Assembly (NCBI GenBank): GCA_945905295.1
Contig: CAMDPX010000031.1
Span: 1 to 45,294, forward strand
Origin: Planctomyces sp. SH-PL62
GTDB taxonomy: Bacteria > Planctomycetota > Planctomycetia > Planctomycetales > Planctomycetaceae
DNA length: 45,294 nucleotides
Direction: 5' to 3'
Every line of letters begins with the position of its first letter. The stretch's first letter is position 1. The position numbers and the translations under genes are program-made. Below the pieces are notes generated by a model that did not search any database, was not told the origin of the DNA, and worked only from the letters and a program-made list of their open reading frames with translations. Positions 5,957 through 25,409 of the stretch are shown here, in pieces.

Positions 5957-7338
5957 AGCAATTCGTGAATCGGCTTCACGCCGGCATCGACGAGGTAATG
6001 CGGGCGACCTTGTAAGTCTTGAACCGTCGTGTTCGCGCCGTCGATTCCAAGGTGCTGGTACAGCGTCGCGAAGACTTCTTGGAACGTGACCGGACGATCG
6101 ACTGCTTCGCCAGCGATCTTGTCGGAGGCTCCGATGACTTGCCCCGCGCGGATGCCTCCGCCCGCGAGCAACGCGCAGGCAAGGCGCGGCCAGTGATCGC
6201 GGCCGACTTGCTTGCTGATGACCGGTGTGCGGCCGAACTCACCCCAGACGAGGACCATCGTGTCGTCGAGCATCCCGCGCACTTGCAGGTCGTCGACCAG
6301 CGTCGTCATTGCGTTGTCGAAGATCGGGAAGTCTTCTTGCTCGCGGAGGAAGATCGAGTTGTTCGCTCGCCCCTCGGCGTTGAGGCCGCCGTGCCAATCC
6401 CACTTGCTGTAATTGAGTGTGACGACTCGCACGCCCGCTTCGATCAGCCGCCGAGCCATCAACATGCTCTGTGGGACGCGCGGTGCGCCGTTGCCGTCCA
6501 TCATGATCTTCGGATTGCCGATCCCGTATCGAGCGACGATGCGCGGATCTTCTTTCGAGAGATCAAGTGCCTCGGCCAAGCGAGACGACGTCAACAAGTC
6601 CATCGCTTGCCGCGTGAACGTGTCGAGTCCGTCCATCATTCCTTTCGCATCGACATTGCGACGGAAGCGATCCACGCTCGATAGCAAAGCCTTTCGATCT
6701 CCAAGACGTTCCGGCGTCACGCCATTGAGCACCATGTCATCGCGTGTCGAACCCAGTGGGCGAAAACCCGACTGACCAACTCCAAGAAATCCCGGTCCCG
6801 GTTCGTTGTACGGCCCGTGAGTGGTGGTGTAGCAGAGGCTGACATACGGCGGAGTTGCCGGATCAACCGGCCCCTTGACCTTCGACACCGTCGATCCGAA
6901 TTGCGGCCAGCCTCCGGTGGGGACTCCTGCGCCGCGCGGCGGACGGCCGGTGAAGCATTGCGTGGCATCGTGCTCGGCCTGAGCACCGACCAGCGAGCGG
7001 ATCGGAACGAACCGATCCATCATCGTCGCCATCTTGGGGAGCAACTCGCCGATCTCGACGCCGGGCACATTGGTGGCGATCGGCTTCCACGGACCAGCGA
7101 TCTCTGACGGCGCGAACGGCTTCAAATCAAAGAGGTCCTGGTGAGGAGGACCACCGACCAAATAGATCATGATGACCGACTTCGGTCGCTTGGTCGTCGA
7201 TTCCGCTCGCGCGTCGGCCGCCAGCAATTGCGACAGCGTCAATCCGCCCCAGCCCAGCCCGCCGATCCGCAGAAAGTTGCGGCGCGACATTCCGTCGCAG
7301 AATTGTTGGTCATCCGACTGGCCGAGAAGCGTCAGCAT
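5953..7338 (-). CDS. DUF1501 family protein, Tat-exported
   Basis: This is the third DUF1501 protein, 461 residues. A twin-arginine signal SRRNFLRIGGLGWGG lies near residue 18. Family blocks are VIMIYLVGGPPHQDLFDLKP, IGELLPKMATMMDRFVPIRS, TLNYSKWDWHGG, LVWGEFGRTPVISKQVGRDH and AGGGIRAGQVIGASDK. The ATG at 7338 has GGAAGG about ten bases upstream. Its stop overlaps the GTG of the kinase, so the two are translated from one message. It closely resembles the 2765-4108 protein and less so the 1286-2623 one. The ECF sigma gene lies 141 bp upstream on the same strand. The set is therefore sigma factor, DUF1501, kinase, DUF1501, DUF1501, an arrangement I do not recognise as a standard operon. Confidence 0.93.
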   Translation of the reverse strand: MLTLLGQSDDQQFCDGMSRRNFLRIGGLGWGGLTLSQLLAADARAESTTKRPKSVIMIYLVGGPPHQDLFDLKPFAPSEIAGPWKPIATNVPGVEIGELLPKMATMMDRFVPIRSLVGAQAEHDATQCFTGRPPRGAGVPTGGWPQFGSTVSKVKGPVDPATPPYVSLCYTTTHGPYNEPGPGFLGVGQSGFRPLGSTRDDMVLNGVTPERLGDRKALLSSVDRFRRNVDAKGMMDGLDTFTRQAMDLLTSSRLAEALDLSKEDPRIVARYGIGNPKIMMDGNGAPRVPQSMLMARRLIEAGVRVVTLNYSKWDWHGGLNAEGRANNSIFLREQEDFPIFDNAMTTLVDDLQVRGMLDDTMVLVWGEFGRTPVISKQVGRDHWPRLACALLAGGGIRAGQVIGASDKIAGEAVDRPVTFQEVFATLYQHLGIDGANTTVQDLQGRPHYLVDAGVKPIHELL

Positions 7339-9844: not shown

Positions 9845-9915
9845 GGTGGTTCCCGCGCTTCTGCACGACCGAAAACGCGGAGAACTTCGAGTCGTGCAGA
9901 AGCGTGGGAACCACC
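9845..9915. repeat. Inverted repeat, 25-nt arms with one mismatch
   Basis: The arms at 9845-9869 and 9891-9915 pair with a single mismatch around a 21-nt loop. This is a distinct family from the two neighbouring elements. Confidence 0.8.
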
Positions 9916-10011
9916 GACGCGAAGCCGGTGGTCTCTACTCAAATCGGTTGCCAGAACAAGATCGTTGTCGTTGTTTACGCGGAATTCCCTCCCTGGAATC
10001 GTCCAGGGTCT

Positions 10012-10097
10012 GGCATTTCAGAATTCAGAATTGGCCGAGCGCGACGTGCTAACTCGGAACCAACTCCACTTCGGCCGACTGTGAATTGTGAAGTGCC
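10012..10097. repeat. 86-bp palindromic repeat, copy 1
   Basis: The left arm 10012-10038 (GGCATTTCAGAATTCAGAAT, then TGGCCGA) and the right arm 10071-10097 are imperfect reverse complements. A tail of about 40 bp starting TGACCCCCGCGTTG follows and is shared with copies 2 and 3. The same 86-bp unit recurs at 19841, 20662 and 21629 in the same orientation. Confidence 0.9.
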
Positions 10098-10244
10098 TGA
10101 CCCCCGCGTTGCTGGACACGGAAGACACAGAGACAACAAAAGTCAGGCAGACAAAGAAGAATGAAAGAGTGTGTCTGACTTGTAAAAACACCGTTCATCG
10201 CATCTCTTGTCGTTCTTGATCCTCCGAGCCTGTGAATAAATGAC

Positions 10245-10307
10245 GTGGGGCACGTTTTCAACGTGCCCAATCAGGCTGTTTTCGAGCACGTTGAAAACGT
10301 GCTCCAC
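10245..10307. repeat. Double-hairpin palindrome (GCACGTT family), intergenic copy
   Basis: Two hairpins lie in tandem (GGGCACGTT-TTC-AACGTGCCC and GAGCACGTTGAAAACGTGCTC), and the whole element is itself an inverted repeat. The intragenic relative is at 5177-5230 in the kinase activation loop. Confidence 0.88.
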
Positions 10308-10384
10308 GAAAACTTCACAGCCTCTCCGCTTACCGTTCGTGTGCATTCCTCAGACAGTGGTCCTCACCGTGTTGGAGGTCAGCG

Positions 10385-13300
10385 ATGTCGAACTTCTCTC
10401 GTCCCGAGAACATGACCCGCCTCGAGTTTCTGAGTTCAGTGCAGCGTGAGGCTTGGCAACGTGGAGAGCGGGTTCTTGTCGAAGCTCTGTTGCGGCAGCA
10501 TCCGAGCGAGTTGTTGAACGACGAGGAATTGCTCCAACTGGTCGTCGGCGAGTTTCAGTTGCGGCGGCAGTGTGGCGACTCTCCGGCCGAGGGGGGATAT
10601 GCCGCTCGCTTTCCCGCGTTGAAGGATCGGCTGCTGCCGTTGCTCGCCAAGGCGCGAGCCAGTGACGGTCCCGGAACGAGTGAGGTGGAATTGCCGGCCA
10701 CGTCTCAGACAGCGCAACGTTTGGAAGTTGGCTCGACGGTGCTGACCTATCGGCTCGTGCAACGGTTGGGGGACGGCGCAACCGGGACGACTTGGAAGGC
10801 GCGGCACGTCGCGCTCGACAAGGACGTCGTCTTGAAAGTGCTTCCCGAACGGCTGACGCAGAACAAGCAGCTTCTCGAACGGTTTGATCGGGAGACTCAG
10901 TCGATCAGCAGGCTCGATCACCCGCACATCGTCCGCGCACTCGACGCCGGAGAATGGCAGGGCCTGCGCTACTTGGTGATGGAATACGCCGAGGGATTCA
11001 AGCTCGCGAAGTTAGTGGCCGACGGGAGAGCCCGTTCGGTGGCGGATGCGTGCGAGGTCATTCGCCAAGCGGCGACAGGTCTGCAACATGCTCACGAGCA
11101 CGGATTGGTGCATCGCGACGTCAATCCGGACAATCTGATGGTGACCAAGCAGGGGAAGGTAAAAGTTCTGAACCTGGGTGTGGCCCTCTTGAAAGGTGAC
11201 ATGCCAGGCAAGAAAGACTTGGCGACGATCACCGAGTCGGGGCAGATGCTCGGCTCGCCCGACTATATGGCCCCCGAACAGTGGGAAGGCTCGCACACGG
11301 TTGATGGGCGGGCGGACGTGTACGCTCTGGGCTGCACGTTGTTCTTTCTGCTGACCGGCCGCGCTCCCTACAGCGACAGCCAGCACCAATCGGTGTTCTC
11401 CAAAATGCAGGGGCACACCCTTGAGCCCATTCCCGATCTCAAAGCGATGCGTGCGGACGTGCCGGACTCCGTACACAATCTCTTCCAATCGTTGATGGCG
11501 AAGAACCCCATCCATCGAATGCCGACAGCCGCACTCTTGGCGAAGGAGCTCGCCACGATCCGAAAGGAATTGCTCGAACCCAGCCGCGCCGCCGCTCCAA
11601 CGCCGCCGATGGTGCCCAAGGCTGCGGTGACTGCATCTCCGCCACCTCCACTGGCTGAGCTTCAAGCGACCGAATCGAATTCCGTCTTGGCGGCGTTTGC
11701 CGATGACGGGAGCTCGCGGAAGCAGCCTGCGAAACATCAGACGCCTCCAGAGACTAGCCCTGCCGAATCCATTGATGACATCGCTGGGTTGGCGGCGGCC
11801 TTTCAATCGCCGTCCCAGAAAGTTCCACGCGCCGCCAAGAGTGCTCCCGTCAGCCAGAAGCGGCAGCTTGTGTGGATCGGAGCGGCCGTCGTGTGTCTGG
11901 CAGTTGTGGGCTCAATCTATGTCTTCGTGACTTCGTCTTCTTCCAAACGAAAAGCAGCGCAGGCCAGCGTCGCGAAACAAGAGGCTGAGAAAAAGGAAAA
12001 GACTAAAAAGAACACCGCCAAGAAAGTGACGTCAGCCAGTGCCTCGAAGAAATCAAAGGACGCTCAGCCGCCGCCGGCATTGCCACTTCCGGAACTCGTC
12101 CAGCGAGTGGATCGCGGGATCGTTCGCATCGACACCTTCAACGCGAGCAACCAACCCTTGGGGCACGGCACGGGTTTCGTGATCGACGACAGCGGCTTGA
12201 TCGCCACCAACTTTCATGTGGTGGATCTGGCCGCGAAGGCGACCGCTACGTTTGAGGAGGGGAAAACGGTCGACATCAAGGGCTTGCGAGCCTGGGACCA
12301 GGACGGTGACCTGGCCATTTTGGAGTTGGCGGAAGTGGACCGGTTCATCGAAGTCCTGCCGCTGAACAAGGAGGTCCGCCGCGAACGAGCCATCGACGTG
12401 GTCGCCATTGGTCATCCGCAGGGCTTCAAGTTCGTGATTACTCCTGGAATCATCAGCGCCATTCATCGCACCGATCAGTTGCCGGAAGAATATCGTCAGG
12501 AGCTCCGCACGCCTGACGATTACACCTGGTTGCAAATCGACGCCGCGATCAACAGTGGCAACAGCGGCGGCCCGCTCATGAACCGGCAAGGGGAAGTGAT
12601 TGGCATCATCACCTGGGTCGTCAAAGGGGCTCAGAATCTGAACTTCGCGATTGATGTGCGCCACTTGCGGCAGTTGTACACACAACGCCAACCCACGGCC
12701 GTCGCGCTTTCGGAGGTGACTGGTCCGTTCGGCGATCTGGTCAGTCTGGTGAAAGAGTTCGAGAACAACATGCAAATCTTGATGGATGGAGCGAGGCGTT
12801 CCAAATCGCGGGACGAGGCCATCGCGTTCATCCAACAGAACCACCCCGCTGTGGACGTGCTGCCGCGCATCAATGCGTTAGCCGAGCGATTTCGTCAGGG
12901 ACATGTCGCCTTGCCGGCGTGGAGCGTGATGTGCCGGATGGTCGATGCCTCGTGCCCGGCGACCTGCGATGAGACGTTCCGCCTGGCGGCGGATCGCATC
13001 TGCCAGACGCATCGCGATGACGAGCGGATCATGAATTCGCTGTTGTCTCTTAGGCATTCACGGTTGCCGTCCGCTCAAGCCTTGCTGAAGCGTCTCAGCC
13101 AAGAGAGCCAGCAAGACAAGATCAAAGCCTGGGCGCTGTATGCCTTGGCCGGTTCCTTGCGAGAAGCCAGCCCTGGAAAGCCATCTGCGGAGTCCATCGA
13201 AGTCCTGGAGCAAATGAAACGGGACTACGGACATCTGCAACATAACGGCTACATGATTTCCGACATCTGCGAGTCCGAGATCTTCAATGCCAAATTCTTG

Positions 13301-13726
13301 TCGATCGGCTGCACCGCGCAGGACATCTTCGGACAAGACCAGGACGGCCAGGAGTTCAAGCTCAGCGATTTTCGAGGCAAGGTCGTCGTGTTGGATTTCT
13401 GGGCCGATTGGTGTCCGCATTGCGTGGCGATGTATCCGCTGGAACGCATCCTGGTTGAGAAACATGCCAAACGCCCATTTGCATTGCTGGGCATCAACGC
13501 GGACAAAGCCGACCGATTCCGTCAGGTCATCGACTCGAAGCAGGTGACTTGGCGAAATTGGTCCGATGGTCCGGGCGGACCGATCAGCGTAGCTTGGCAC
13601 GTCTCGTCGTATCCCACGCTGTATGTCCTCGATCACAACGGAGTCATTCGTTATCGCGATGTTCGGGGAGCCGAGTTGGAGGCGGCTGTTGAAAAGCTCT
13701 TAGCCGAGCAGCCCGCGATCAAGTGA
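10385..13726 (+). CDS. Kinase-TM-trypsin-thioredoxin (TlpA) fusion protein
   Basis: This 1113-residue protein has three enzymatic modules. Residues about 122-395 are a Hanks-type kinase fold: LGDGATGTTWKA, K151, then HRDVNPDN (243-250) and APEQ. The lysine of HRDxKxxN is Asn247, and the DFG motif reads N263-L-G265, so Mg binding should be impaired and this may be a pseudokinase. Residues about 495-518 form one transmembrane helix, followed by a Lys-rich stretch. Residues about 570-760 are a trypsin/DegP-like protease with His611 (TNFHVV), Asp642 (DGDLAIL) and Ser727 (NSGNSGGPL). Residues about 970-1113 are a TlpA/thioredoxin domain with C1010-P-H-C1013. The kinase should be cytoplasmic and the protease and redox domains outside the membrane. 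GGAGG lies six bases before the ATG. The gene is followed by a broken kinase. Signal-dependent proteolysis or redox quality control is inference. Confidence 0.93.
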   Translation: MSNFSRPENMTRLEFLSSVQREAWQRGERVLVEALLRQHPSELLNDEELLQLVVGEFQLRRQCGDSPAEGGYAARFPALKDRLLPLLAKARASDGPGTSEVELPATSQTAQRLEVGSTVLTYRLVQRLGDGATGTTWKARHVALDKDVVLKVLPERLTQNKQLLERFDRETQSISRLDHPHIVRALDAGEWQGLRYLVMEYAEGFKLAKLVADGRARSVADACEVIRQAATGLQHAHEHGLVHRDVNPDNLMVTKQGKVKVLNLGVALLKGDMPGKKDLATITESGQMLGSPDYMAPEQWEGSHTVDGRADVYALGCTLFFLLTGRAPYSDSQHQSVFSKMQGHTLEPIPDLKAMRADVPDSVHNLFQSLMAKNPIHRMPTAALLAKELATIRKELLEPSRAAAPTPPMVPKAAVTASPPPPLAELQATESNSVLAAFADDGSSRKQPAKHQTPPETSPAESIDDIAGLAAAFQSPSQKVPRAAKSAPVSQKRQLVWIGAAVVCLAVVGSIYVFVTSSSSKRKAAQASVAKQEAEKKEKTKKNTAKKVTSASASKKSKDAQPPPALPLPELVQRVDRGIVRIDTFNASNQPLGHGTGFVIDDSGLIATNFHVVDLAAKATATFEEGKTVDIKGLRAWDQDGDLAILELAEVDRFIEVLPLNKEVRRERAIDVVAIGHPQGFKFVITPGIISAIHRTDQLPEEYRQELRTPDDYTWLQIDAAINSGNSGGPLMNRQGEVIGIITWVVKGAQNLNFAIDVRHLRQLYTQRQPTAVALSEVTGPFGDLVSLVKEFENNMQILMDGARRSKSRDEAIAFIQQNHPAVDVLPRINALAERFRQGHVALPAWSVMCRMVDASCPATCDETFRLAADRICQTHRDDERIMNSLLSLRHSRLPSAQALLKRLSQESQQDKIKAWALYALAGSLREASPGKPSAESIEVLEQMKRDYGHLQHNGYMISDICESEIFNAKFLSIGCTAQDIFGQDQDGQEFKLSDFRGKVVVLDFWADWCPHCVAMYPLERILVEKHAKRPFALLGINADKADRFRQVIDSKQVTWRNWSDGPGGPISVAWHVSSYPTLYVLDHNGVIRYRDVRGAELEAAVEKLLAEQPAIK

Positions 13727-13799
13727 TTCTCGAATGTCTGTCCCGTTCTCCTGGCCGCGACACCATTGCTCGCCAATCGCCCCGACTCGGGAGTCCTCC

Positions 13800-14504
13800 A
13801 TGCCGTTGACCATTGACCAATTCACTCACCAGGTGTCTTCGTCCGGCCTGATGACCGAAGACGGGTTGCGGGCGTGGTTCAAATCGGAGTCGTTCGATCA
13901 GGTTCCGTTGGATGGCGAGCAGCTCGCGCGCGAGTTGGTCAAGCAGAAGAAGCTGACCAAGTTTCAGGCCAGCCAAATCTACGCGGGCAAAGGGGCGTCG
14001 CTGGTCCTCGGCAACTACGTCATTCTCGACAAGCTGGGCCAGGGTGGCATGGGGATGGTGCTGAAGGCCGAGCACAAGCGCATGAAGCGGCTGGTGGCGG
14101 TGAAGGTGATCTCGGCGGCGGCGATGAAGTCGAAGGATGCGGTCCAACGCTTTCATCGCGAAGTCGAAACGGCGGCGAAGTTGACGCACCCCAACATCGT
14201 CAACGCCCACGATGCCGACGAGGCCAAGGGGACGCACTTCCTGGTGATGGAATACATCGAGGGGGACGACCTCTACGCGCTGGTGAAGAAGGGCGGAACG
14301 CTGAGTGTGAACGCGGCCCTCGACGCGATTCTACAGGCGGCGCGCGGGTTGGAGTACGCTCACAAACGCGGGGTGATTCATCGCGACATCAAGCCGGGCA
14401 ACTTCGTGCTCTACCGCGACCAGAGCTGCCGCAAAAGTAGTCCGGCTGGCGATCGCCAGCCATTGGCGAAAATGTTGTCAGAACGGTCTGACGCTAAAGA
14501 CTGA
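13800..14504 (+). pseudogene. Ser/Thr kinase truncated after the HRD motif
   Basis: From the ATG at 13800 the frame encodes an N-terminal region typical of planctomycete kinases, then LGQGGMGMVLKAEHKR, the VAVKVI lysine, the MEYIEGDDLY hinge and HRDIKPGN. After FVLYRDQ (about 14420) similarity stops abruptly: no DFG, APE or C-lobe follows, and the last 24 or so codons look random before the stop. The protein would lack the metal-binding and activation segments and could not fold as a kinase. The break coincides with the start of the low-G+C block (next gene at 14669), as expected if inserted DNA replaced the 3' part. It lies 73 bp after the fusion gene, so it was probably a partner kinase. 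Confidence 0.85.
14444..14461. repeat. 18-bp perfect palindrome at the kinase break
   Basis: GGCTGGCGATCGCCAGCC is a perfect palindrome located just past the point where kinase similarity ends. It could mark the junction of the inserted block. It is short, so its role is uncertain. Confidence 0.6.
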
Positions 14505-14668
14505 ATCAAAGTTGTGCCGCTTTCTTCACGCGGTTAATCCCTCTGGAATGAGGTCATGCAGAAAGCTCGCTGCAGCACCCCTTGCTTGCGATTTTGCACA
14601 TCAGTGATTATGAAAACTACCGAAGCGTGGCCTTTTCTATCTCCTTTAAGATTTGTTTGGAGTTCAGC

Positions 14669-16918
14669 ATGCCAAACCCCATTGCCTGTCACGCCATGCA
14701 GAAAGTACTCGAATTGTCGAGTATCCAGGAGGGTGAACTTCGTCTTGATTTTTTGAAGCTAGTTTGTGAACTCCACGGAGAACAAAGGTGTGCAGCATTG
14801 CTGTGGCTCTGGGATCCCGAATGGAGAGTCCTAGTGCTCAATAGCTATCACTCACCGATGTTGGATGTCGAAGCCCCCGCAGAGTTAATGCGTCGCGAAG
14901 CAACACCGAACCATTCGGGGAACGAGTTACTTTCCGGCAACGGGGAACTTTGTCCTGGAAAGACAGACTTTTGGCGGGTCAATCTCCATGAGCAGCCAGA
15001 GGTTTTGGCCTGGGCAGAAGGATTGGGAATTACAGCGAATTGCAAATTTACGCCGTTGTCGATTCGAAAACCTCAACCGCCGACCGGTTCTCCAGAAGAG
15101 ATTTGTATTGGGTTCGTGCAGTTCCTTTCGCAGTCTCAACTCAGTGATGAAATCTCAGATTGCCTGCGGTTTTGGGGAGCTGGCCTGGCAAGTGCGATCA
15201 CTCGGCAGCGAGAGCAAGGCCATTTTGCTGTATTGCGAGAACTGAGCCGGGGAGATGCTCAGTTAGACCGAAACAAGGAAGAGTGGTTACAGTTGGCTGT
15301 TGTGCAGGTTGCCAAACGCTGTTCGGCACAATTCGCCTTGGCTCTTGCGCCCCGGGCGGACATGAATTTTGAAGCCAAGGCCACATATCCACTCACGGCC
15401 TCGCTGCGAGGGTTCGTGGCTCATCGAAATAGCCTGACGCACAGGATCTCGCAGAGCAAGGAACACCTTCGTGTTCGACTAAGAACATTCCAAGACCCGA
15501 ATGAACTGCTGCGTGTCTTCGGCCATACCGAATTTGATCACAAGTTAGCAGAAGCCATCGCGGATGCTCTCAAAGGACCACCGCAGTCATGGCTCGCGAT
15601 GACGGTCAAGTTTGGAAGGCGGACCAGTGCGGTCATCATGCTTTGGAATAAGACGACTGGTTTGACACGCTCATTTAGCCACACGGATTCCTCGATTCTT
15701 GAGGCGGCCTGTAAATTTCTTGGGGACGTACTCCCAAGTGTGGAGAGTTACCAAGCCATTCAAACGCTCTCAAAAGTGGACTACTCGGATTTGTTGGATA
15801 ACGAGCGAACTCAACAAAAGGCGTTTTCGCAAATCGGAAATCTTGTTACTGGCATCGCTTCGCTAGCAATTGTTCATTGGCCGCACATCAAAGAATCTCC
15901 CAAAGGGATGCTGCTCTTACAAGTCGGTGAAAAATGCTTCGACCCGAATGCGCCACTTCCAGGACCAACTGCGGATGTTGCTCCGATCCCAGAAAGTCAG
16001 ATTCGCGATCCTGACATTCCCTACTACTTTGCGACGACGATACCGACGATCGAAAACGGAAGAGCATTCCTCTATCTCGCACTGCGAAGAAGCTGGCTCA
16101 GCGACTTTGCGAAAGCGATCTTGATTTTTTTTGTCAAAGAATTGAGCCATGTGTTACGCACACACGATCATTCCGAGAAAGTCAAAGGCGACTTTGCGCA
16201 AATTCGCCATGCCATTCGAGCCAACCTAATGGGTGTGGTGGGATATATTCAGGAGGCCAAATCGAGCCTGGAAATTCAAACGCAGCAGGCTCGGATGATT
16301 CCAGCAGTTCAAACCCGACTTCGAAAGGCTTTCGGGTGGGCTTATTTTTACGCCGCTAGGACTAGCACATTTCTCGATTCCACGAGGTTTTTGCTCGGAA
16401 ACATCACGCGTGATTCGCTGAAACTCAACGGAGCATCGCTTCGAACAAGTATCAACACCATCATCAATTCGCTCCGTCCGCTGGCCGAGGATCGCCGAAT
16501 CGATTTGAAATTAGTCGATCAACTGCCGCAGGGACGAGACCAAGTGAATTTCGATCAGCAACTCATCGATATGATGGTCTTCAATGTTGTCGAAAACGCA
16601 ATCAAGTATTCCTATCGCGACAAGGACGTCATTGTGGCTTTGACATTCCGTAGCTCGAATTGGGTGTTGACGGTCACTGACTACGGAGAACACATCCAAG
16701 CGAAAGACCTCGCACCTATTTTTCGTCCCTACGAGCGTCGCTCGCCAGGAGGACATTCCACACCACGGCCTGGTACGGGACTCGGCCTTCCGGTCGCGAA
16801 AGCGATCGCCGAAGCACATGGCGGTCGCATTGAGGCCACATCGATCAAGTTGCAAGACACCGTTGATGCTCCGGCCGAAACGATTTTTACTGTGATTATG
16901 CCCCGATCACCTTCTTAG
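14669..16918 (+). CDS. Soluble sensor histidine kinase with GAF-like N-terminus
   Basis: This is about 749 residues from the ATG at 14669, chosen because GGAG lies about six bases upstream; the frame is open further to 14582. There are no membrane helices, so it is cytoplasmic. The N-terminal 480 or so residues contain two or three alpha/beta regions resembling GAF sensor domains, without an obvious ligand motif. The H-box is QIRHAIRANLMGVVGY with phospho-acceptor His514. The ATPase has the N-box FNVVENAIKYS (Asn643), G1 D671-YGEH (the second Gly of DxGxG is His) and G2 GTGLGLPVAKA (702 on). It leads an operon: the receiver gene starts 22 bp after its stop and the cyclase 12 bp after that. 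Base composition is visibly poorer in G+C than the flanks, which indicates transfer. The signal sensed is unknown. Confidence 0.9.
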   Translation: MPNPIACHAMQKVLELSSIQEGELRLDFLKLVCELHGEQRCAALLWLWDPEWRVLVLNSYHSPMLDVEAPAELMRREATPNHSGNELLSGNGELCPGKTDFWRVNLHEQPEVLAWAEGLGITANCKFTPLSIRKPQPPTGSPEEICIGFVQFLSQSQLSDEISDCLRFWGAGLASAITRQREQGHFAVLRELSRGDAQLDRNKEEWLQLAVVQVAKRCSAQFALALAPRADMNFEAKATYPLTASLRGFVAHRNSLTHRISQSKEHLRVRLRTFQDPNELLRVFGHTEFDHKLAEAIADALKGPPQSWLAMTVKFGRRTSAVIMLWNKTTGLTRSFSHTDSSILEAACKFLGDVLPSVESYQAIQTLSKVDYSDLLDNERTQQKAFSQIGNLVTGIASLAIVHWPHIKESPKGMLLLQVGEKCFDPNAPLPGPTADVAPIPESQIRDPDIPYYFATTIPTIENGRAFLYLALRRSWLSDFAKAILIFFVKELSHVLRTHDHSEKVKGDFAQIRHAIRANLMGVVGYIQEAKSSLEIQTQQARMIPAVQTRLRKAFGWAYFYAARTSTFLDSTRFLLGNITRDSLKLNGASLRTSINTIINSLRPLAEDRRIDLKLVDQLPQGRDQVNFDQQLIDMMVFNVVENAIKYSYRDKDVIVALTFRSSNWVLTVTDYGEHIQAKDLAPIFRPYERRSPGGHSTPRPGTGLGLPVAKAIAEAHGGRIEATSIKLQDTVDAPAETIFTVIMPRSPS

Positions 16919-17465: not shown

Positions 17466-18854
17466 ATGAGTGATGTTCAACCACGTTTTCGCTCTCAGAT
17501 GGAAAGCAGGGCGTTGGAGTCGCTTGGGAGCGTAATGACAACACTTTGCTATCGAACTAGTGATTTGCGGTCGTTCGACAAGAGCCTGTTTGGCCCGTTG
17601 TGTCAGTGCATTGCCAATATCAGCGCGGACGCGATTGTCGTCTACTCTGACAAATACAACATAGCGTTGAGCACATACGCACTGGCGGGCCGCAGTATGC
17701 GTAAGCATGAAGACGATGTCATTCGCCTCGTTTTGACGGAACTCAAAAAAATTCGTCAGTCTGCGGACTCTTCCAGCTTGTCTCATCTGCCCCTCGTGAT
17801 CCCGTGGGGTTCTGACTCTGTGATCTTGGCTGCGCCATTTCCAACCGGGAATGATCGTGCCGATCCATTGGGCGATCTGAGCGACAGTTTCTCTCTGGTT
17901 GTTTTTCAAAAGCGGCACCTTCCGGGAAATGGTGAAGCAACGTCTCACGACTACGAAGTTTGGCGGCGTCATCTCGTGTTTCCAGTGCTGAGCCTAGTGT
18001 TCCTGATTTTGCGTCATCGCATTCGGCTGTTTGCGTCTTTCCCGCCGAAGGTATCGCGTCTCTACTGGGATACAGCGGGAGGACGAACCGCGACTCCCGG
18101 CAAGCCGGCATTCGAGCCTCCGTGGATAGGCCGGAAGAGTTCTGAGGCTGGATCCACATCCAAGCTCCTGAGGCAGAAATCCACTTCTCGACTGACGGCA
18201 ACGCTGTCTTTCGATCTGCGAAAGTCCACCTTTTGTATGGAGAATACTCCCCCGGCGAAGTTCGCGCGGTGGATGGACGATTTTGTAGAGATTCTTCATC
18301 AGATTGCGCACCAGCATGGTGGCGTGTTTGATAAGTTCACCGGAGACGGAGCACTCGTGCATTTTTTAGCGGACGAGTGTCGTGAGGTTTATCAAAAGGA
18401 TCCCATCGAATGTGCGGTCCGGTGTGCTGTCGATTTTATTCAGGCAACGCGAATCCACCTTCCCAGACTTCAGCAATTTCTCACACACGATTCACGACTT
18501 CTCGGTGGATCTGCCGGCATTGATTACGCCTCTGCGCATTGGGACATTGATAGCCGATTTCATCCGGTCACCGTCGGCAAGGGCGTTGTGAATGCTTGCC
18601 GACTCGGAGACGGAGCTCTCGCCGGGCGTATTCGGCTCACCAATCGCGTCTATCGACGTCTTCCAAGGTGGTTTCGGACTGCTTACGAATACGTCGCGGT
18701 TGACTTTTCGAGCAAGGAAGTGGTCAAGAACCAGGAAGTGACCTGTTGGGAATGGGAACCTCCGAAGTTTGGAATTCAAGGCGACGTTGAGGCCGTGAGA
18801 CGGATCTGTGATCAAATCTATTCGCAGCGAAGACGATCCGACACACGCAAGTAG
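17466..18854 (+). CDS. Class III nucleotidyl cyclase
   Basis: Of 462 residues, the N-terminal 230 or so resemble a GAF/sensor region and hold one hydrophobic stretch (HLVFPVLSLVFLILRHRI) that may be a buried helix or a membrane segment. The C-terminal half is a class III cyclase domain. Metal-binding D250 is in LSFDLRKST; K290 and D294 are in FDKFTGDGALVHF, the standard pattern. The transition-state region reads GKGVVNACRLG with N376 and R379, a spacing of three where the usual VNxAxR has four. In a gapless alignment Val would take the catalytic Asn position. The product could be cAMP, cGMP or another cyclic nucleotide; substrate residues are not clear. It is the last gene of the tight operon and is probably gated by the receiver. 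The overlapping-context membrane CBS gene starts 123 bp downstream. Confidence 0.88.
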   Translation: MSDVQPRFRSQMESRALESLGSVMTTLCYRTSDLRSFDKSLFGPLCQCIANISADAIVVYSDKYNIALSTYALAGRSMRKHEDDVIRLVLTELKKIRQSADSSSLSHLPLVIPWGSDSVILAAPFPTGNDRADPLGDLSDSFSLVVFQKRHLPGNGEATSHDYEVWRRHLVFPVLSLVFLILRHRIRLFASFPPKVSRLYWDTAGGRTATPGKPAFEPPWIGRKSSEAGSTSKLLRQKSTSRLTATLSFDLRKSTFCMENTPPAKFARWMDDFVEILHQIAHQHGGVFDKFTGDGALVHFLADECREVYQKDPIECAVRCAVDFIQATRIHLPRLQQFLTHDSRLLGGSAGIDYASAHWDIDSRFHPVTVGKGVVNACRLGDGALAGRIRLTNRVYRRLPRWFRTAYEYVAVDFSSKEVVKNQEVTCWEWEPPKFGIQGDVEAVRRICDQIYSQRRRSDTRK

Positions 18855-19983: not shown

Positions 19984-20469
19984 ATGCAGCCTTCGATCTA
20001 CCTCGAAACGAGCGTCATTGGATGTTTGGCGATGCGACTGAGCGGCGTCTTGCGGATCGCAGCCAATCAGCAAACCACGCGCGACTGGTGGGACAATCAT
20101 CGACAGCGATACGACCTGTTCGTGTCACGCTATGTGGTTGATGAATGCTCGGATGGCGACCCCGTCGCCGCTCAGGAGAGGCTCGTCTTTCTCGAAGGCA
20201 TTCCATTATTGGAAGTCAGCGACGCGGCCGTGACGCTTGCAGAAGCCCTGCTCAAAAACGTGCCGTTGCCGCCCAAAGCGGCCATTGATGCTTATCACAT
20301 TTCGGTGGCGGCAGTTCATGGCGTAGAATACCTGACGACTTGGAATTGCCGACACATTGCCAACCCGGCGCTACGAGCGCGAATTGAATTCGTCTGCCGT
20401 GAAATGGGCTACGAACCTCCCGTGATTTGCACACCGCAGGAACTGTTGGAGATCAACGATGCAACCTGA
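19984..20469 (+). CDS. PIN-domain ribonuclease toxin (VapC-like)
   Basis: This 161-residue PIN-domain protein belongs to the YLETSVIG subgroup, in which Glu replaces the first Asp of classical VapC. Further active-site context is AAIDAYHISVAAVHGVEYL and TTWNCRHIAN, conserved in this family. PIN toxins are Mg-dependent RNases. The antitoxin-like reading frame downstream overlaps its 3' end by 11 bp (ATGCAACCTGA), which implies coupled translation with toxin first. The start has AAAGGA about ten bases upstream. The gene pair is bracketed by copies 2 and 3 of the 86-bp repeat. The RNA target is unknown. Confidence 0.88.
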   Translation: MQPSIYLETSVIGCLAMRLSGVLRIAANQQTTRDWWDNHRQRYDLFVSRYVVDECSDGDPVAAQERLVFLEGIPLLEVSDAAVTLAEALLKNVPLPPKAAIDAYHISVAAVHGVEYLTTWNCRHIANPALRARIEFVCREMGYEPPVICTPQELLEINDAT

Positions 20470-21714: not shown

Positions 21715-21889
21715 TGAGCGACCGCGCTCTTCAAAACAGCAATGGCAATTGAGGAGCTGGAGCGAGCCGGTTCAAGCTGGAACTCAAATTGCCGACAGAC
21801 TTGCTCCTGCGCTGTGCTGACGGACAAGATGCCGCCCCGTGAAATGCCCTAGTCATCGTTCAACGTCAAAATCCGAACTCTCACATGGC

Positions 21890-21894
21890 GGAGG
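21890..21894 (+). promoter_or_regulatory. Ribosome-binding site that fixes the TPR start
   Basis: GGAGG lies five bases before the ATG at 21900. The in-frame ATG at 21885 has no such site and adds five residues in front of the signal peptide, so 21900 is preferred. Confidence 0.75.
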
Positions 21895-21899
21895 CTTCC

Positions 21900-24800
21900 A
21901 TGTCCCCAGCAGGTAAAGTTCTGCTCGCGATCGCTCTTCAGTGCGCGTTGCTGGCACCGTGTCCGAGTCTCGCCGCCGATGATCCGAACCCGGAGGCGAC
22001 TCGCCAGTACGCTGTGGCTTACGGCTTCCAATCCAAGAAGCTCTTCGCCCAGGCGATGCCGCGCTGGACCGAATTCTTGAAGACGTTCCCGCAAGACACG
22101 CGCGTCCCGAACGCGCACTACCAACTCGGTGTCTGCCAGTTGAACGAGAAGAAGCTGCCGGAGGCGACGGCCACATTCAAGCTCATCCTGGCGACGTATC
22201 CGCAGTTCAAGCATCTCGACGGAGCACAATTCAATCTCGGCCTCACGCTGTTCCAAACGGCTCAAACTTCAAAGCTACCGAACGACTTCAAGGCTGCCGC
22301 CGCTGAGTTCGCCAACGTCCCAACCAAGTTCGCGGCGAGTCCGCTCGCGGCCGACGCGACGTACTATCAGGCCGAGAGCTTGTATCTCGCCGCCGATAAG
22401 CCGAACGCGATCGTCGCGTATCAGAAGGTGATTGCGACGTATCCCGCCGCGACGGTCCTGCCGGAAGCGTTCTACGGACTCGGCACCACGCAGGCCGACC
22501 TCGATCAGCATGTCGAAGCGGTCACGACGTTCACGAAGTTGCTGCAAAGCTTCCCGCAGAGTCCGCTCGTCCCAGAGGCCAAGCTGCGGCTGGGCACATC
22601 GCTCGTCGCGCAGAAGAGACACGCCGAAGCCGAGCCTCACTTCGTGCAAGCCGCGGCCGTCCCCAATTTTCCGTTGGCTGATGTCGCTACGTTGAAGCAG
22701 GGCCAAGCACTGTTCGATCAAAACAAATTCCCCGAAGCCGCTGCCGTGCTCGATACGGTTCCGACGAAGTTTCCCAAGAGCGAACAGATCGGCCCCGCCT
22801 TTACCGCCACCGGCAAAGCCCGTTTCAAAGCGGGACAATTCCCACAGGCTCAAACCGCGCTGGCCACGGTCGTCACTCAAAAGCTGCCGACCGCTCCCGA
22901 AGCCGCGTATTGGCTCGGACGCACGCTGATCGCGCTCAAGCAACCGGCCACTGTGGTCGCGACCGTCGATCCCGTCATCTCCGCGAACGCTCAGAGCGAA
23001 TTCATCCCCGCGTTGCAGTTGGTCCGCATCGACTCGATCTACGAAATCCCCGAACGTCGCAAAGAGACGATTCCGCTCTACTCGCAGTTCGCGGCGACGT
23101 TTGCCGCGCACGAACTCGCGCCGGAAGCCAAATACCGAGCCGCACTCGCTGCGTTGCAGACCAGTGACTTCCCGAACGCGCAGGCCCAAGCAGAGCAATT
23201 CATCGCGACCGCTCCGTTCGCGAAGCACGCACTCGTCCCGGAAGTGGTCTTCGTCGCGGGCGAGGCGTATTTGCTCAATCAACCGGAAGCGAATCTCGCG
23301 AAGGCCGAGCCGCTCTTCCGTCGACTCGTCACCGAGTTCCCCACGAACCCACACGCTCCGCAAGCCCAAGTCCGCATCGGCCTCTGTTTGTACTCGGCGG
23401 GCGTCGCCGCCAATCAGCCGCCGAAGTTCGAGGAGTGCATCGCCTACCTCAACCCAATCGTCGCGACGTTGAAAGACCCCGCGCTGCTCGCTGAAGCGCG
23501 TTACCTCATCGGCCGAGCACACGGCGAAATGAAACGTCATCCCGATGCCGTCGTCGCCTTCCGAGCCGCTCTACAAGCCAAGCCCGATTGGGATCGCCTT
23601 GACGAAGTGCTGCTCGCGCTCGGCGTCAGCCTGCGAGCTGTCAACGACGCGCCGAACGCCACCGTCGAACTCACGAAGCTCAACCAAATCGCCGCCAGCA
23701 AGCTGCGCGACCGAGCGTTGTTCCATCTCGGCGAGATTGACCGCGGACTCAAGAAGCCCGACACCGCCGTTGCGTTCTACCAGCAAGTTGTCACCGGTTT
23801 CCCGATGAGCGACCTCGTCCCCGCCGCGATCTATGGCAGCGGAGCCGCACTCTTCGAGAAGCCCGACTACCCGAACGCCACCACGCATCTGACAAAACTC
23901 ATCGCCGAGAAACCGCAAAGCGAACTCGTCCCCGCCGCGCTCTTCCTGCGAGGTCTTTGCCTGCATCGCCAAAAACAATTCGACCCCGCATTGAAAGACC
24001 TCACGCAATTCATCGCTACGAACAAGGCCGCCGAGAAAGATGCCCTCGACGCCAAGTTCGCGATGGCCCTTTGCCAAGCCGGGCTGAAACAGTTTGCGCC
24101 GGAGATCGTGACGCTCACGCAATTGCTCACCGCCAAGCCCGACTACCCTGACGCCGACAAGTGCCACTACGAAATTGCCTTCGCGAACCTCGAACTCAAG
24201 AAAGAGAAGGAAGCCGCCGACGCCTTCCGCTTGCTCGCAACGAAACTGCCCACCAGTCCGCTCGCCGCCGAGTCTTGGTTCCGAGTCGGCGAGTTCCACG
24301 AGACTCAAAAGCAACCGACGGAATCCATCGCAGCCTTCACGGCCGGCCTCACGTCCGCGAAGACGCCCGAACTGCGCGAGCGACTGCACTACAAACTCGG
24401 CTGGGTCCAGCACGACCAAAAACAATTCCCCGCCGCGCTGGCCACGTTTCAAAACCAAATCAAAGAGTTCCCGCAGGGGACTCTGCTCGGCGATGCCAAC
24501 TTCCTCGCCGGTGAATGCCAATTCCGCCAGGACAAGTTTGCCGAAGCTCTGCCGTTTTACGCTGCCGTCATTACCGCCAAGAGCGAACGCTTCCACGCGA
24601 AAGCTCTCTACCGCAGCGGCACCTGCGCCACGCAACTCAAACAATGGCCACAAGCCCAACAACACTTCACGGTGCTGATCCAAGCCTTCCCACAATTCGA
24701 GCAACTCTACGAAGCTCGCTTTGGGCTCGGCTTCGCTCAACAAAACCAAAACCAAATCGACGCCGCGAAAGCCACCTACCTGCAAGTCACCAAGGAAACT

Positions 24801-25073
24801 CGCACGGAAACCGCCGCGAAGGCCCGCTTCATGATGGGCCAATGTGCTCTCGCCGCGAAGAACAACGCCGAGGCCACCGAACACTTCCTCGAAGCCGCCT
24901 TTGGCTACCCCTACGAAGAATGGCAATGCCAGAGCCACTTCGAGGCCGCGAAGTGTTTCATCGAACTGAAGGACACAGAGAAAGCCCGCGAGTCTCTCGA
25001 AACCGTCACCAAACGTTTCCCCAATCACGTCCGAGCCAAAGAAGCGACGACATTACTTGCGGGCTTGAAGTAA
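21900..25073 (+). CDS. Secreted tetratricopeptide-repeat protein
   Basis: This is 1057 residues with a signal peptide (MSPAGKVLLAIALQCALLAP, then CPSLAADDP). The rest is about twenty-five TPR-like units of 34-37 residues; examples are PNAHYQLGVCQLNEKKLPEA, PEAFYGLGTTQADLDQHVEA and AKALYRSGTCATQLKQWPQA. Such arrays bind peptides or proteins; long secreted versions are common in planctomycetes, where they may organise cell-envelope complexes. Composition is Ala/Lys/Pro-rich with regular AxxxFPxS turns. No catalytic domain is seen. It is monocistronic as far as visible: the cassette array precedes it and the tRNA locus follows. The opposite strand also has long open frames because of biased codons; they are shadows. 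Confidence 0.9.
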   Translation: MSPAGKVLLAIALQCALLAPCPSLAADDPNPEATRQYAVAYGFQSKKLFAQAMPRWTEFLKTFPQDTRVPNAHYQLGVCQLNEKKLPEATATFKLILATYPQFKHLDGAQFNLGLTLFQTAQTSKLPNDFKAAAAEFANVPTKFAASPLAADATYYQAESLYLAADKPNAIVAYQKVIATYPAATVLPEAFYGLGTTQADLDQHVEAVTTFTKLLQSFPQSPLVPEAKLRLGTSLVAQKRHAEAEPHFVQAAAVPNFPLADVATLKQGQALFDQNKFPEAAAVLDTVPTKFPKSEQIGPAFTATGKARFKAGQFPQAQTALATVVTQKLPTAPEAAYWLGRTLIALKQPATVVATVDPVISANAQSEFIPALQLVRIDSIYEIPERRKETIPLYSQFAATFAAHELAPEAKYRAALAALQTSDFPNAQAQAEQFIATAPFAKHALVPEVVFVAGEAYLLNQPEANLAKAEPLFRRLVTEFPTNPHAPQAQVRIGLCLYSAGVAANQPPKFEECIAYLNPIVATLKDPALLAEARYLIGRAHGEMKRHPDAVVAFRAALQAKPDWDRLDEVLLALGVSLRAVNDAPNATVELTKLNQIAASKLRDRALFHLGEIDRGLKKPDTAVAFYQQVVTGFPMSDLVPAAIYGSGAALFEKPDYPNATTHLTKLIAEKPQSELVPAALFLRGLCLHRQKQFDPALKDLTQFIATNKAAEKDALDAKFAMALCQAGLKQFAPEIVTLTQLLTAKPDYPDADKCHYEIAFANLELKKEKEAADAFRLLATKLPTSPLAAESWFRVGEFHETQKQPTESIAAFTAGLTSAKTPELRERLHYKLGWVQHDQKQFPAALATFQNQIKEFPQGTLLGDANFLAGECQFRQDKFAEALPFYAAVITAKSERFHAKALYRSGTCATQLKQWPQAQQHFTVLIQAFPQFEQLYEARFGLGFAQQNQNQIDAAKATYLQVTKETRTETAAKARFMMGQCALAAKNNAEATEHFLEAAFGYPYEEWQCQSHFEAAKCFIELKDTEKARESLETVTKRFPNHVRAKEATTLLAGLK

Positions 25074-25112
25074 CCCATTCGCACAAATCCGAGCCGCTTG
25101 GAACTGTCCAAC

Positions 25113-25140
25113 TTGCGACGCGGTTCTTCGCAACTATACT
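25113..25140 (+). promoter_or_regulatory. Probable sigma-70 promoter for tRNA-Leu
   Basis: TTGCGA (25113-25118) and TATACT (25135-25140) are separated by 16 bp and lie about 110 bp before the tRNA. Both hexamers are one or two bases from consensus. The transcript would include the tRNA-like remnant at 25194. Confidence 0.5.
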
Positions 25141-25193
25141 CCGTCCCCTCTCGCGTCGGGCGGCGATCATCAGATTACCGACCGGCGCAAAAC

Positions 25194-25230
25194 ACCGGCG
25201 GAACTGGCAGACGCGCTCGGTGGGAGACTC
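25194..25230 (+). pseudogene. Degenerate tRNA-Leu 5' part
   Basis: GGCGGAACTGGCAGACGCGC matches the D-arm region of leucine tRNAs almost perfectly, and the intact gene just downstream has GGCGAAATTGGCAGACGC. No anticodon arm, variable arm or T-arm follows in order, so this looks like a decayed or truncated tRNA-Leu. Confidence 0.5.
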
Positions 25231-25248
25231 AGTCGGACACAGAGATTC

Positions 25249-25332
25249 GCGGTCGTGGCGAAATTGGCAGACGCACTAGCTTGAGGTGCTAGCGCCCGCA
25301 AGGGCTTGGAGGTTCAAATCCTCTCGACCGCA
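25249..25332 (+). tRNA. trnL(gag): tRNA-Leu (anticodon GAG)
   Basis: This 84-nt gene has the seven-base acceptor stem GCGGTCG/CGACCGC and discriminator A. The anticodon arm CTAGC-TTGAGGT-GCTAG has GAG at 25283-25285, the long variable arm CGCCCGCAAGGGC is typical of class II tRNAs, and the T-arm GGAGG-TTCAAAT-CCTCT is present. CCA is not encoded. It reads CUC and CUU codons. Confidence 0.96.
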
Positions 25333-25334
25333 TT

Positions 25335-25409
25335 CAAGACAACCCAGCAGACTGATGGGGCCAGTGGGGCTTAACCCCGTGCAGGCTCGATTCCTGTCTT
25401 GCTCACTTT
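25335..25409 (+). other. tRNA-like or structured RNA segment
   Basis: GCAGGCTCGATTCCTGT resembles a T-arm with loop CTCGATT. A GGGGCTTAACCCC hairpin lies before it, and CAAGAC (start) pairs with GTCTTG (end). A proper anticodon loop with T33 cannot be drawn, so I do not call a functional tRNA. It may be a decayed tRNA, a structured leader or trailer, or the imprint of an integration event next to tRNA-Leu. The rest of 25074-25604 holds only the tRNA locus, promoter and terminator. Confidence 0.3.

Follow-up and report, generated by a model that had tools for sequence, protein, structure and literature searches.

A pseudokinase-like domain, a trypsin-like protease and a TlpA-type thioredoxin domain combined in one predicted membrane protein of two closely related planctomycetes

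Receptor kinases of the PknB (Hanks) type hold a kinase fold inside the cell, one transmembrane (TM) helix and further domains outside, i.e., PASTA domains (cf. the NCBIfam name NF033483), and the HtrA/Deg proteases (S1C), DegS in particular, join a trypsin fold with a His-Asp-Ser triad to a TM anchor. RsgI9 of Clostridium thermocellum runs from a cytoplasmic regulatory domain over a TM helix to an S1C protease-like ectodomain, and mycobacterial MviN is a membrane protein with a pseudokinase domain, albeit with another partner and with neither a protease nor a TlpA domain. A gene in a 45,294-nucleotide stretch of DNA from Planctomyces sp. SH-PL62 (contig CAMDPX010000031.1 of assembly GCA_945905295.1; hereafter the window) resembles each of these in part, in that its product carries a PknB-like domain with lost catalytic residues, a TM helix, an HtrA-type protease domain, a helical linker and a TlpA-like thioredoxin domain in one chain (Table 1). 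This is an unusual domain combination, present in two closely related planctomycetes, in which a kinase was apparently swapped onto an older protease–thioredoxin module.

The open reading frame (ORF; 10385..13726, + strand) encodes 1113 aa, begins with ATG and contains no internal stop. Pfam placed Pkinase at residues 122–386 (2.7e-42), Trypsin_2 at 595–741 (1.6e-28) and AhpC-TSA at 974–1090 (2.4e-19), all above their gathering scores (for the kinase, 145.4 bits against a PF00069 cut-off of 31.7), and hydropathy yielded a single TM peak in the whole protein, at residues 495–513. These data bear out an earlier note on this DNA, made from the letters alone, which had seen a kinase fold, a TM helix, a protease and a TlpA domain in one chain and had correctly placed H611, D642, S727, N247, N263 and the CPHC motif; the domain of ca. 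200 aa between trypsin and TlpA (about residues 767–973, helical in the AlphaFold2 (AF2) model) had gone unmentioned there. Neither a PDZ domain nor the N-terminal anti-sigma domain of RsgI was among the 12 families matched in the Pfam scan at E ≤ 0.01; a kinase stands in place of the latter, and helices follow the protease in the AF2 model. The helical region ahead of the kinase also aligned ahead of other planctomycete kinases. An assembly error or frameshift join, which that note had named as a way in which its reading could fail, was considered and rejected, as the domains match Pfam separately and the frame must be genuine because another genome assembly carries the same architecture in a 90% identical orthologue.

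This full-length orthologue (L016 = L131) lies in one other genome of the genus (G010) and has an identical layout, with 90.5% identity over 1110 aligned residues. Matches across the whole of residues 570–1113 were restricted to G000 and G010 among 12 genomes of the genus, and the linker region, used as a single query at 1e-6, matched only the same two genomes among 170 in the family. A third genome (G002; L101/L129) holds a 3′ remnant with the TlpA end only, in a 122-aa frame that is 77% identical from query residue 996; the remnant (L101:1494–1860) is preceded by unrelated sequence and a run of C.

In the usual definition, a pseudokinase lacks at least one of the VAIK Lys, the HRD Asp and the DFG Asp (passages of PMC4718504), and on its residues the window kinase domain is a pseudokinase by that definition, through D263N and also through K247N/H. 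The catalytic loop reads HRDVNPDN in the window protein and HRDIHPDN in its orthologue (i.e., the HRDxK Lys became Asn in one and His in the other), and the metal-binding motif reads NLG (N263) in both. At the three KDD sites, the beta-3 Lys (K151) and the HRD Asp (D245) are present while the DFG Asp is absent; E170 and N250 are retained as well. The earlier description as pseudokinase-like was thus strengthened by the sole full-length orthologue found, which has both losses, keeps N263 and differs at position 247. Its wording "NLG for DFG" stood for the change of Asp to Asn but not for Leu: the aligned kinases indicate that Asp-to-Asn is the only departure from the family norm in this motif, which is DLG (69 of 95 non-duplicate kinase rows, with DMG and DFG in 9 each).

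The equivalents of Lys247 and Asp263 were present in 20/20 other kinases aligned (our own pick from the 80 loci of a similarity search). Standard HRDxK/DFG motifs in homologues, which the earlier note had thought would reduce the changes to local ones, were therefore found in distant relatives but not in the orthologue. The HRDxK Lys occurred in 91 of the 95 rows; the window protein, its orthologue and two weak rows that have Thr made up the rest. Each of the two genomes had both residues in 28 of its 30 best kinase matches; the exceptions besides the orthologue pair were L212 (VLD) and L201 (PPG), perhaps through slips in the alignment, and L196 has HGD for HRD. Further departures of the window kinase, i.e., G132A (in the glycine loop), V136T, A149V and L266V, fell in columns invariant in the 20 other kinases, and the equivalents of Val136 and Ala149, which as in PKA adjoin the nucleotide site, were changed in both orthologues. 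Of 80 columns conserved to at least 90%, 68 are kept in both orthologues and 12 are changed in at least one of them. In a leave-one-out count, other kinases depart at 0–14 of 58–69 conserved columns, so that the number of departures is unexceptional and their placement in the active site is what stands out.

In a phylogeny of 75 kinase domains, the two orthologues shared a stem of 0.61 with a support of 100/100, nested among canonical kinases, and the two forks enclosing it had supports of 94/85 and 89/87. Because of this nesting, the losses of Asp and Lys are derived; both orthologues have them, with the Asp replaced alike and the Lys differently. The domain would, to judge from these residue losses, lack kinase activity, and nucleotide binding is possible because K151, E170, D245 and N250 are kept. 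The N-terminal AF2 model (mean predicted local distance difference test score (pLDDT) of 81.5) also agreed with the fold assignment, since PknB chains head its list of PDB matches (e.g., 5u94, at a root-mean-square deviation (rmsd) of 1.6). Separately, two weak kinase-like ORFs on the minus strand (L018, L019) read HRNVTPSN, without the HRD Asp and the Lys, and are perhaps another type of pseudokinase.

Between the orthologues, the ratio of nonsynonymous to synonymous divergence (omega) was about 0.24 for the kinase (bootstrap 0.146–0.409), 0.079 for the trypsin domain (0.035–0.151), 0.208 for the linker (0.110–0.435) and 0.157 for the TlpA domain (0.045–0.383); the trypsin value was the lowest of the four, though its range overlaps those of the linker and TlpA. 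The pseudokinase value (0.238) was the highest among 15 reciprocal kinase pairs (from the 30 best matches per genome, at an identity of at least 70%), and the other 14 ranged from 0.022 to 0.220. These ratios suggest that purifying selection still acts on the kinase part, though with less constraint than on active kinases.

The trypsin domain has the fold and the complete His-Asp-Ser triad (H611, D642, S727) of the HtrA/Deg (S1C) proteases. In VIA, the AF2 model of residues 570–1113 matched DegQ with Z 25.6 and an rmsd of 2.2 over 191 aa (in a list that covers model residues 1–204). The top Foldseek row of this module model was the S1C-NTF2 part of RsgI9 (7sjy), and no TlpA was among its best 50 rows. 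The C-terminal domain has the AhpC-TSA/Redoxin fold with CPHC and a conserved Pro (YPT), both invariant columns in the alignment, as in TlpA/ResA proteins. The linker contains a cysteine pair, CPATC (aa 857–861; 12953–12967), which recurs in the orthologue and for which none of the explanations offered below accounts. As an aside, L157, a relative with a TlpA domain devoid of CxxC, has CNETCPASC in its linker.

At 1e-5, a linker profile had matches in 105 of the 397 genomes of the class, many of them in frames of ~250–550 aa (with the presence of TlpA beside the linker checked in fetched loci only). Trypsin, linker and TlpA occurred together in 14 distinct proteins, the window pair included, with a variety of N-terminal starts (Table 1). 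The start is visible in 11 of the 12 other module proteins and none of these 11 has a kinase, nor was there a kinase match anywhere in L026 or L037; kinase control is therefore not intrinsic to the function of the module. In a TlpA tree (quick, and built on few columns), 11 of the 14 proteins, the window pair among them, formed one clade (SH-aLRT 98), and L090, L146 (= L172) and L157 fell outside it on long branches. Catalytic parts have been lost separately in this set, with the protease Ser replaced by Asn in L090 and the CxxC missing from L170 (SSHC), L172 and L157. Most likely, the pseudokinase was swapped onto a pre-existing two-enzyme module as its cytoplasmic anchor or docking domain, and to judge from the module family, planctomycetes seem to assemble envelope enzymes through an exchange of anchors.

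Other N-terminal exchanges were seen as well. In another family of the class, L166:2871–6497 encodes a zinc ribbon, a kinase (HRDLKPGN, DFG), a TM helix, tetratricopeptide repeats (TPR), the linker and TlpA, without trypsin, so that kinases have joined the TlpA unit more than once. In L089:4603–7452 (= L173), linker and TlpA stand behind an N-terminal part that by eye resembles a thermonuclease. L026 has an in-frame stop near 6259 inside its trypsin part, away from any Cys, which may be a sequencing error or mark a pseudogene. The idea that kinase–trypsin fusions form a widespread family was dropped, as among ORFs of at least 250 aa in 242 loci only copies of the window gene and of its orthologue carried both domains; these loci were redundant and chosen by similarity to parts of the window protein, and fusions could exist with unlike trypsins or in other genomes.

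Kinase folds are by nature cytoplasmic, and the trypsin and TlpA domains would be extracytoplasmic because relatives of the module start with a lipobox, a signal-like segment or a zinc ribbon plus TM helix, which upholds the placing of both domains outside in the earlier note. We consider an orientation with the N-terminus in and the C-terminus out very probable.

Compared with the HtrA/Deg proteases (Z about 24–26 to DegQ, DegP and DegS), the window protein has linker and TlpA in the place of PDZ, plus a large cytoplasmic pseudokinase. Unlike PknB-type kinases, it is without the DFG Asp and the catalytic-loop Lys, and its outer part consists of two enzymes, not PASTA. RsgI9 differs in having an anti-sigma domain instead of the pseudokinase, and NTF2 but no TlpA. 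From the same phylum, the main text of PMC11032199 describes Ser/Thr kinases that likewise combine a TM helix with shuffled C-terminal domains, in 105 accessory domain groups and 307 architectures drawn from kinases with all KDD sites. Since that survey required all three sites and the DFG Asp is lost here, the window kinase falls outside it; its main text has no trypsin, protease, peptidase, AhpC, redoxin or thioredoxin, and its supplementary tables could list such proteins. Actinobacterial conflict systems also contain kinase domains whose catalytic residues are disrupted and which were interpreted as non-enzymatic (passages of PMC7159879); these are likewise bacterial kinase folds thought non-catalytic, but in that text they have vWA-MoxR partners and no thioredoxin/TlpA, and thioredoxin is absent from the passages of PMC7159879, PMC6411480 and PMC8195603. 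The C-terminal domain shares domain type and active-site position with TlpA/ResA oxidoreductases and with selenocysteine (Sec) thiol-disulfide isomerase-like proteins (cd02966, UxxC; passages of PMC13188914), and differs from the UxxC proteins in its Cys-Cys pair (CPHC) and in its fusion to linker, protease and pseudokinase. A described family with this domain order, which the earlier note did not know, was not found in the literature searched, and neither was a text joining kinase, trypsin and thioredoxin in planctomycetes, with most subscription journals lying outside the search.

The reading that we favour, at a probability of roughly one half, is that of a single-pass protein with a non-catalytic cytoplasmic pseudokinase and an outer protease–TlpA part acting on extracytoplasmic proteins. 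The protein would sit in the inner membrane, its N-terminus facing the cytoplasm. On the outer side, the helical linker would tie a PDZ-less protease of the HtrA/DegS type to the CPHC thioredoxin, and both would act jointly on extracytoplasmic proteins, in the simplest case with disulfides being reduced or rearranged and persistently misfolded proteins being cut. The PknB-like domain would descend from an active planctomycete kinase and, having lost the catalytic-loop Lys and the Asp that binds Mg, would no longer transfer phosphate; it would instead dock partners, oligomerise or sense a ligand and so bring the module under the kinase network of the cell. That the pseudokinase controls the outer enzymes is plausible, and signalling across the membrane from one to the other is speculative. 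More specifically, it seems unlikely that the dead kinase, by binding nucleotide or a partner kinase, switches the outer protease–oxidoreductase pair in an inside-out form of envelope protein quality control. Few bacterial pseudokinases are known to have a clear output domain, and the candidate output here would be two measurable enzymes across the membrane. Since the same module with lipobox, zinc-ribbon and plain TM starts forms a natural control set, the contribution of the pseudokinase could be tested by domain swaps.

Several observations weigh against this reading. The stretch after the TM helix is lysine-rich, contrary to the positive-inside rule for the proposed orientation, and the model of residues 570–1113 is of moderate confidence (mean pLDDT 78.7 from 8 rows). 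The trypsin domains of the window protein and its orthologue contain no cysteine, so TlpA cannot switch the protease via a disulfide within that domain, and the separate loss of the protease Ser or of CxxC in relatives weakens the case for strictly joint action. With four kinase residues retained, the domain might still bind nucleotide to some extent or have an unusual activity. The low synonymous divergence of the pseudokinase pair (dS 0.187) makes its omega ratio noisy, and a general role is unlikely with the protein in 2/12 genomes of the genus and 2/170 of the family (linker query).

Part of this evidence would fit a recent chimera without special signalling, in which the 5′ part of a kinase gene, inactivated before or after the event, was fused to a trypsin–linker–TlpA gene as a mere membrane anchor and translation start and is drifting. 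The relaxed omega (highest of the 15 kinase pairs), the finding of just two full copies with only a 3′ remnant in G002, and the widely varying anchors among the module relatives all agree with such a chimera; yet the kinase keeps an open frame, a strong Pfam match and, in both orthologues, 68 of the 80 conserved columns, and omega, with an upper bootstrap bound of 0.409, stays far under 1, which makes this account rather less likely than the one favoured. The retention of K151, E170, D245 and N250 could instead point to an unconventional active kinase with unusual metal chemistry, based on D245, K151 and N250, that receives an outside signal via the protease/TlpA part. Nevertheless, two catalytic-site residues as well as Val136 and Ala149 are changed in both orthologues, and the Lys has given way to a different residue in each, as would happen if activity were not selected for, so that we find such a kinase improbable. 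Least likely is a mainly ligand-sensing role of the S1C domain, like that in RsgI9, with the pseudokinase relaying the signal to a cytoplasmic partner: RsgI9 (7sjy) indeed heads the Foldseek rows, and its protease-like domain is said to bind polysaccharide (passages of PMC12203970), but the triad is intact, trypsin is the most constrained domain (omega 0.079), and in VIA RsgI9 ranks only 33 among the best 50 rows (Z 23.7), below or tied with HtrA proteases.

Table 1. Positions of the features discussed (window coordinates), together with related loci.
Feature	Position	Strand	Basis or remark
Whole gene: pseudokinase – TM – trypsin – helical linker – TlpA	10385..13726	+	ORF, Pfam, orthologue with same architecture
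N-terminal helical region, aa 1–114	10385..10726	+	Alignment (also ahead of kinases L034, L036, L039, L053, L061, L082, L086); helices in AF2 model
Protein kinase fold, PknB-like, aa 122–386	10748..11542	+	Pfam 2.7e-42; AF2 model; PDB matches
Beta-3 lysine K151, kept	10835..10837	+	Invariant alignment column
Catalytic loop HRDVNPDN (243–250); D245, N250 kept, K247 to Asn	11111..11134	+	Alignments
NLG (263–265) at the D-L/F/M-G site, Asp lost	11171..11179	+	Alignments
Single TM helix, aa 495–513	11867..11923	+	Hydropathy 2.42
HtrA-type trypsin-like protease domain without PDZ, aa 570–766	12092..12682	+	Pfam; VIA match to DegQ
Catalytic His611	12215..12217	+	Alignments
Catalytic Asp642	12308..12310	+	Alignments
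Catalytic Ser727 (GNSGG)	12563..12565	+	Alignments
Helical linker domain, aa 767–973	12683..13303	+	AF2 helices; profile matches in class
TlpA-like thioredoxin domain, aa 974–1113	13304..13723	+	Pfam AhpC-TSA, Redoxin
CPHC redox motif (1010–1013)	13412..13423	+	Alignments
Truncated kinase, 256 aa, ending soon after the catalytic loop	13734–14504
HATPase protein	14582–16918
Protein with weak nucleotide-cyclase similarity	17466–18854
PIN-like protein (weak)	19984–20469
TPR-repeat protein	21885..25073	+	TPR/YfiO Pfam; next shared gene downstream in orthologue genome
Module relatives, zinc ribbon plus TM start			L130, L169, L170, L171, L172
Module relatives, lipobox			L024, L040, L090, L026 (start upstream of in-frame stop)
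Module relatives, signal-like or TM start			L031, L157
Module relative, start cut by contig end			L037
Loci chosen for a flagged TGA			L105–L107, L110, L112, L113, L119, L132, L244–L272

Downstream of the gene, the orthologue locus lacks the segment 13748–21794 (~8 kb), and the next block in common (window 21795–25346) follows there after ~175 bases; the segment looks like an insertion or island. Upstream, only two short pieces were shared with the window in the ~6 kb compared. A sigma-70 promoter scan of 9900–14600 found 0 sites against 1.0 expected in shuffles, and 9 terminator-like sites were present in the same interval against 4.9 (sd 2.4) expected, none of which was used in the interpretation. 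A reading as part of a defence system was also considered: in PADLOC, 36 families matched the window protein, and among the 25 listed all matches lay within residues 109–559 (kinase up to TM), with none in trypsin or TlpA.

Finally, the module profile also matched apparent selenoproteins. In a search of the phylum, 36 of 294 genomes had matches at 1e-60. Apart from that of the window, each of the 47 rows listed contained exactly one in-frame TGA, at a threshold that drops weaker matches and maybe Cys forms (another search gave many TlpA relatives without a stop). In the 37 loci chosen for a flagged TGA, 39/39 TGAs coincided with the first Cys in the CxxC of TlpA, within WUGPC in 33. Downstream of it, CACGAGCGGTCGCTCGT was exact from base 28 of the read (TGA = 1–3) in 32/37 distinct reads and GAGCGGTCGCTC occurred in 33/37, those 33 folding with a stem around a GGTC loop. 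The resulting hairpin in most loci, CACGAGC-GGTC-GCTCGTG, is near-invariant and resembles a Sec insertion sequence (SECIS); four reads with HEK for HERS lack it (L254, L258, L262, L268), L249 has CTC for CAC, and it was absent from nine Cys homologues compared, that of the window included. SelB scored over its cut-off in 11/12 genomes of the genus vs. 2/14 controls, and tRNA-Sec in 9/12 vs. 5/14; the window's own genome has SelB, and its best tRNA-Sec match (46.7) was just under the cut-off of 47.

Sec forms of TlpA-like proteins with UxxC have been listed before (cd02966, passages of PMC13188914), as have planctomycete selenoproteins (passages of PMC4807772); a planctomycete linker–TlpA Sec form was not found in the literature searched, and the supplementary tables of PMC4807772 could list it. 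On their codons, the linker–TlpA relatives with TGA are apparent selenoproteins, widespread in the phylum, which ordinary annotation would cut at the UGA, and they likely belong to a class already known, with a SECIS-like element that is unusually fixed. The Sec/Cys label changes six times on the (weak) TlpA tree, placing the CPHC domain of the window in a family that alternates between Sec and Cys forms.

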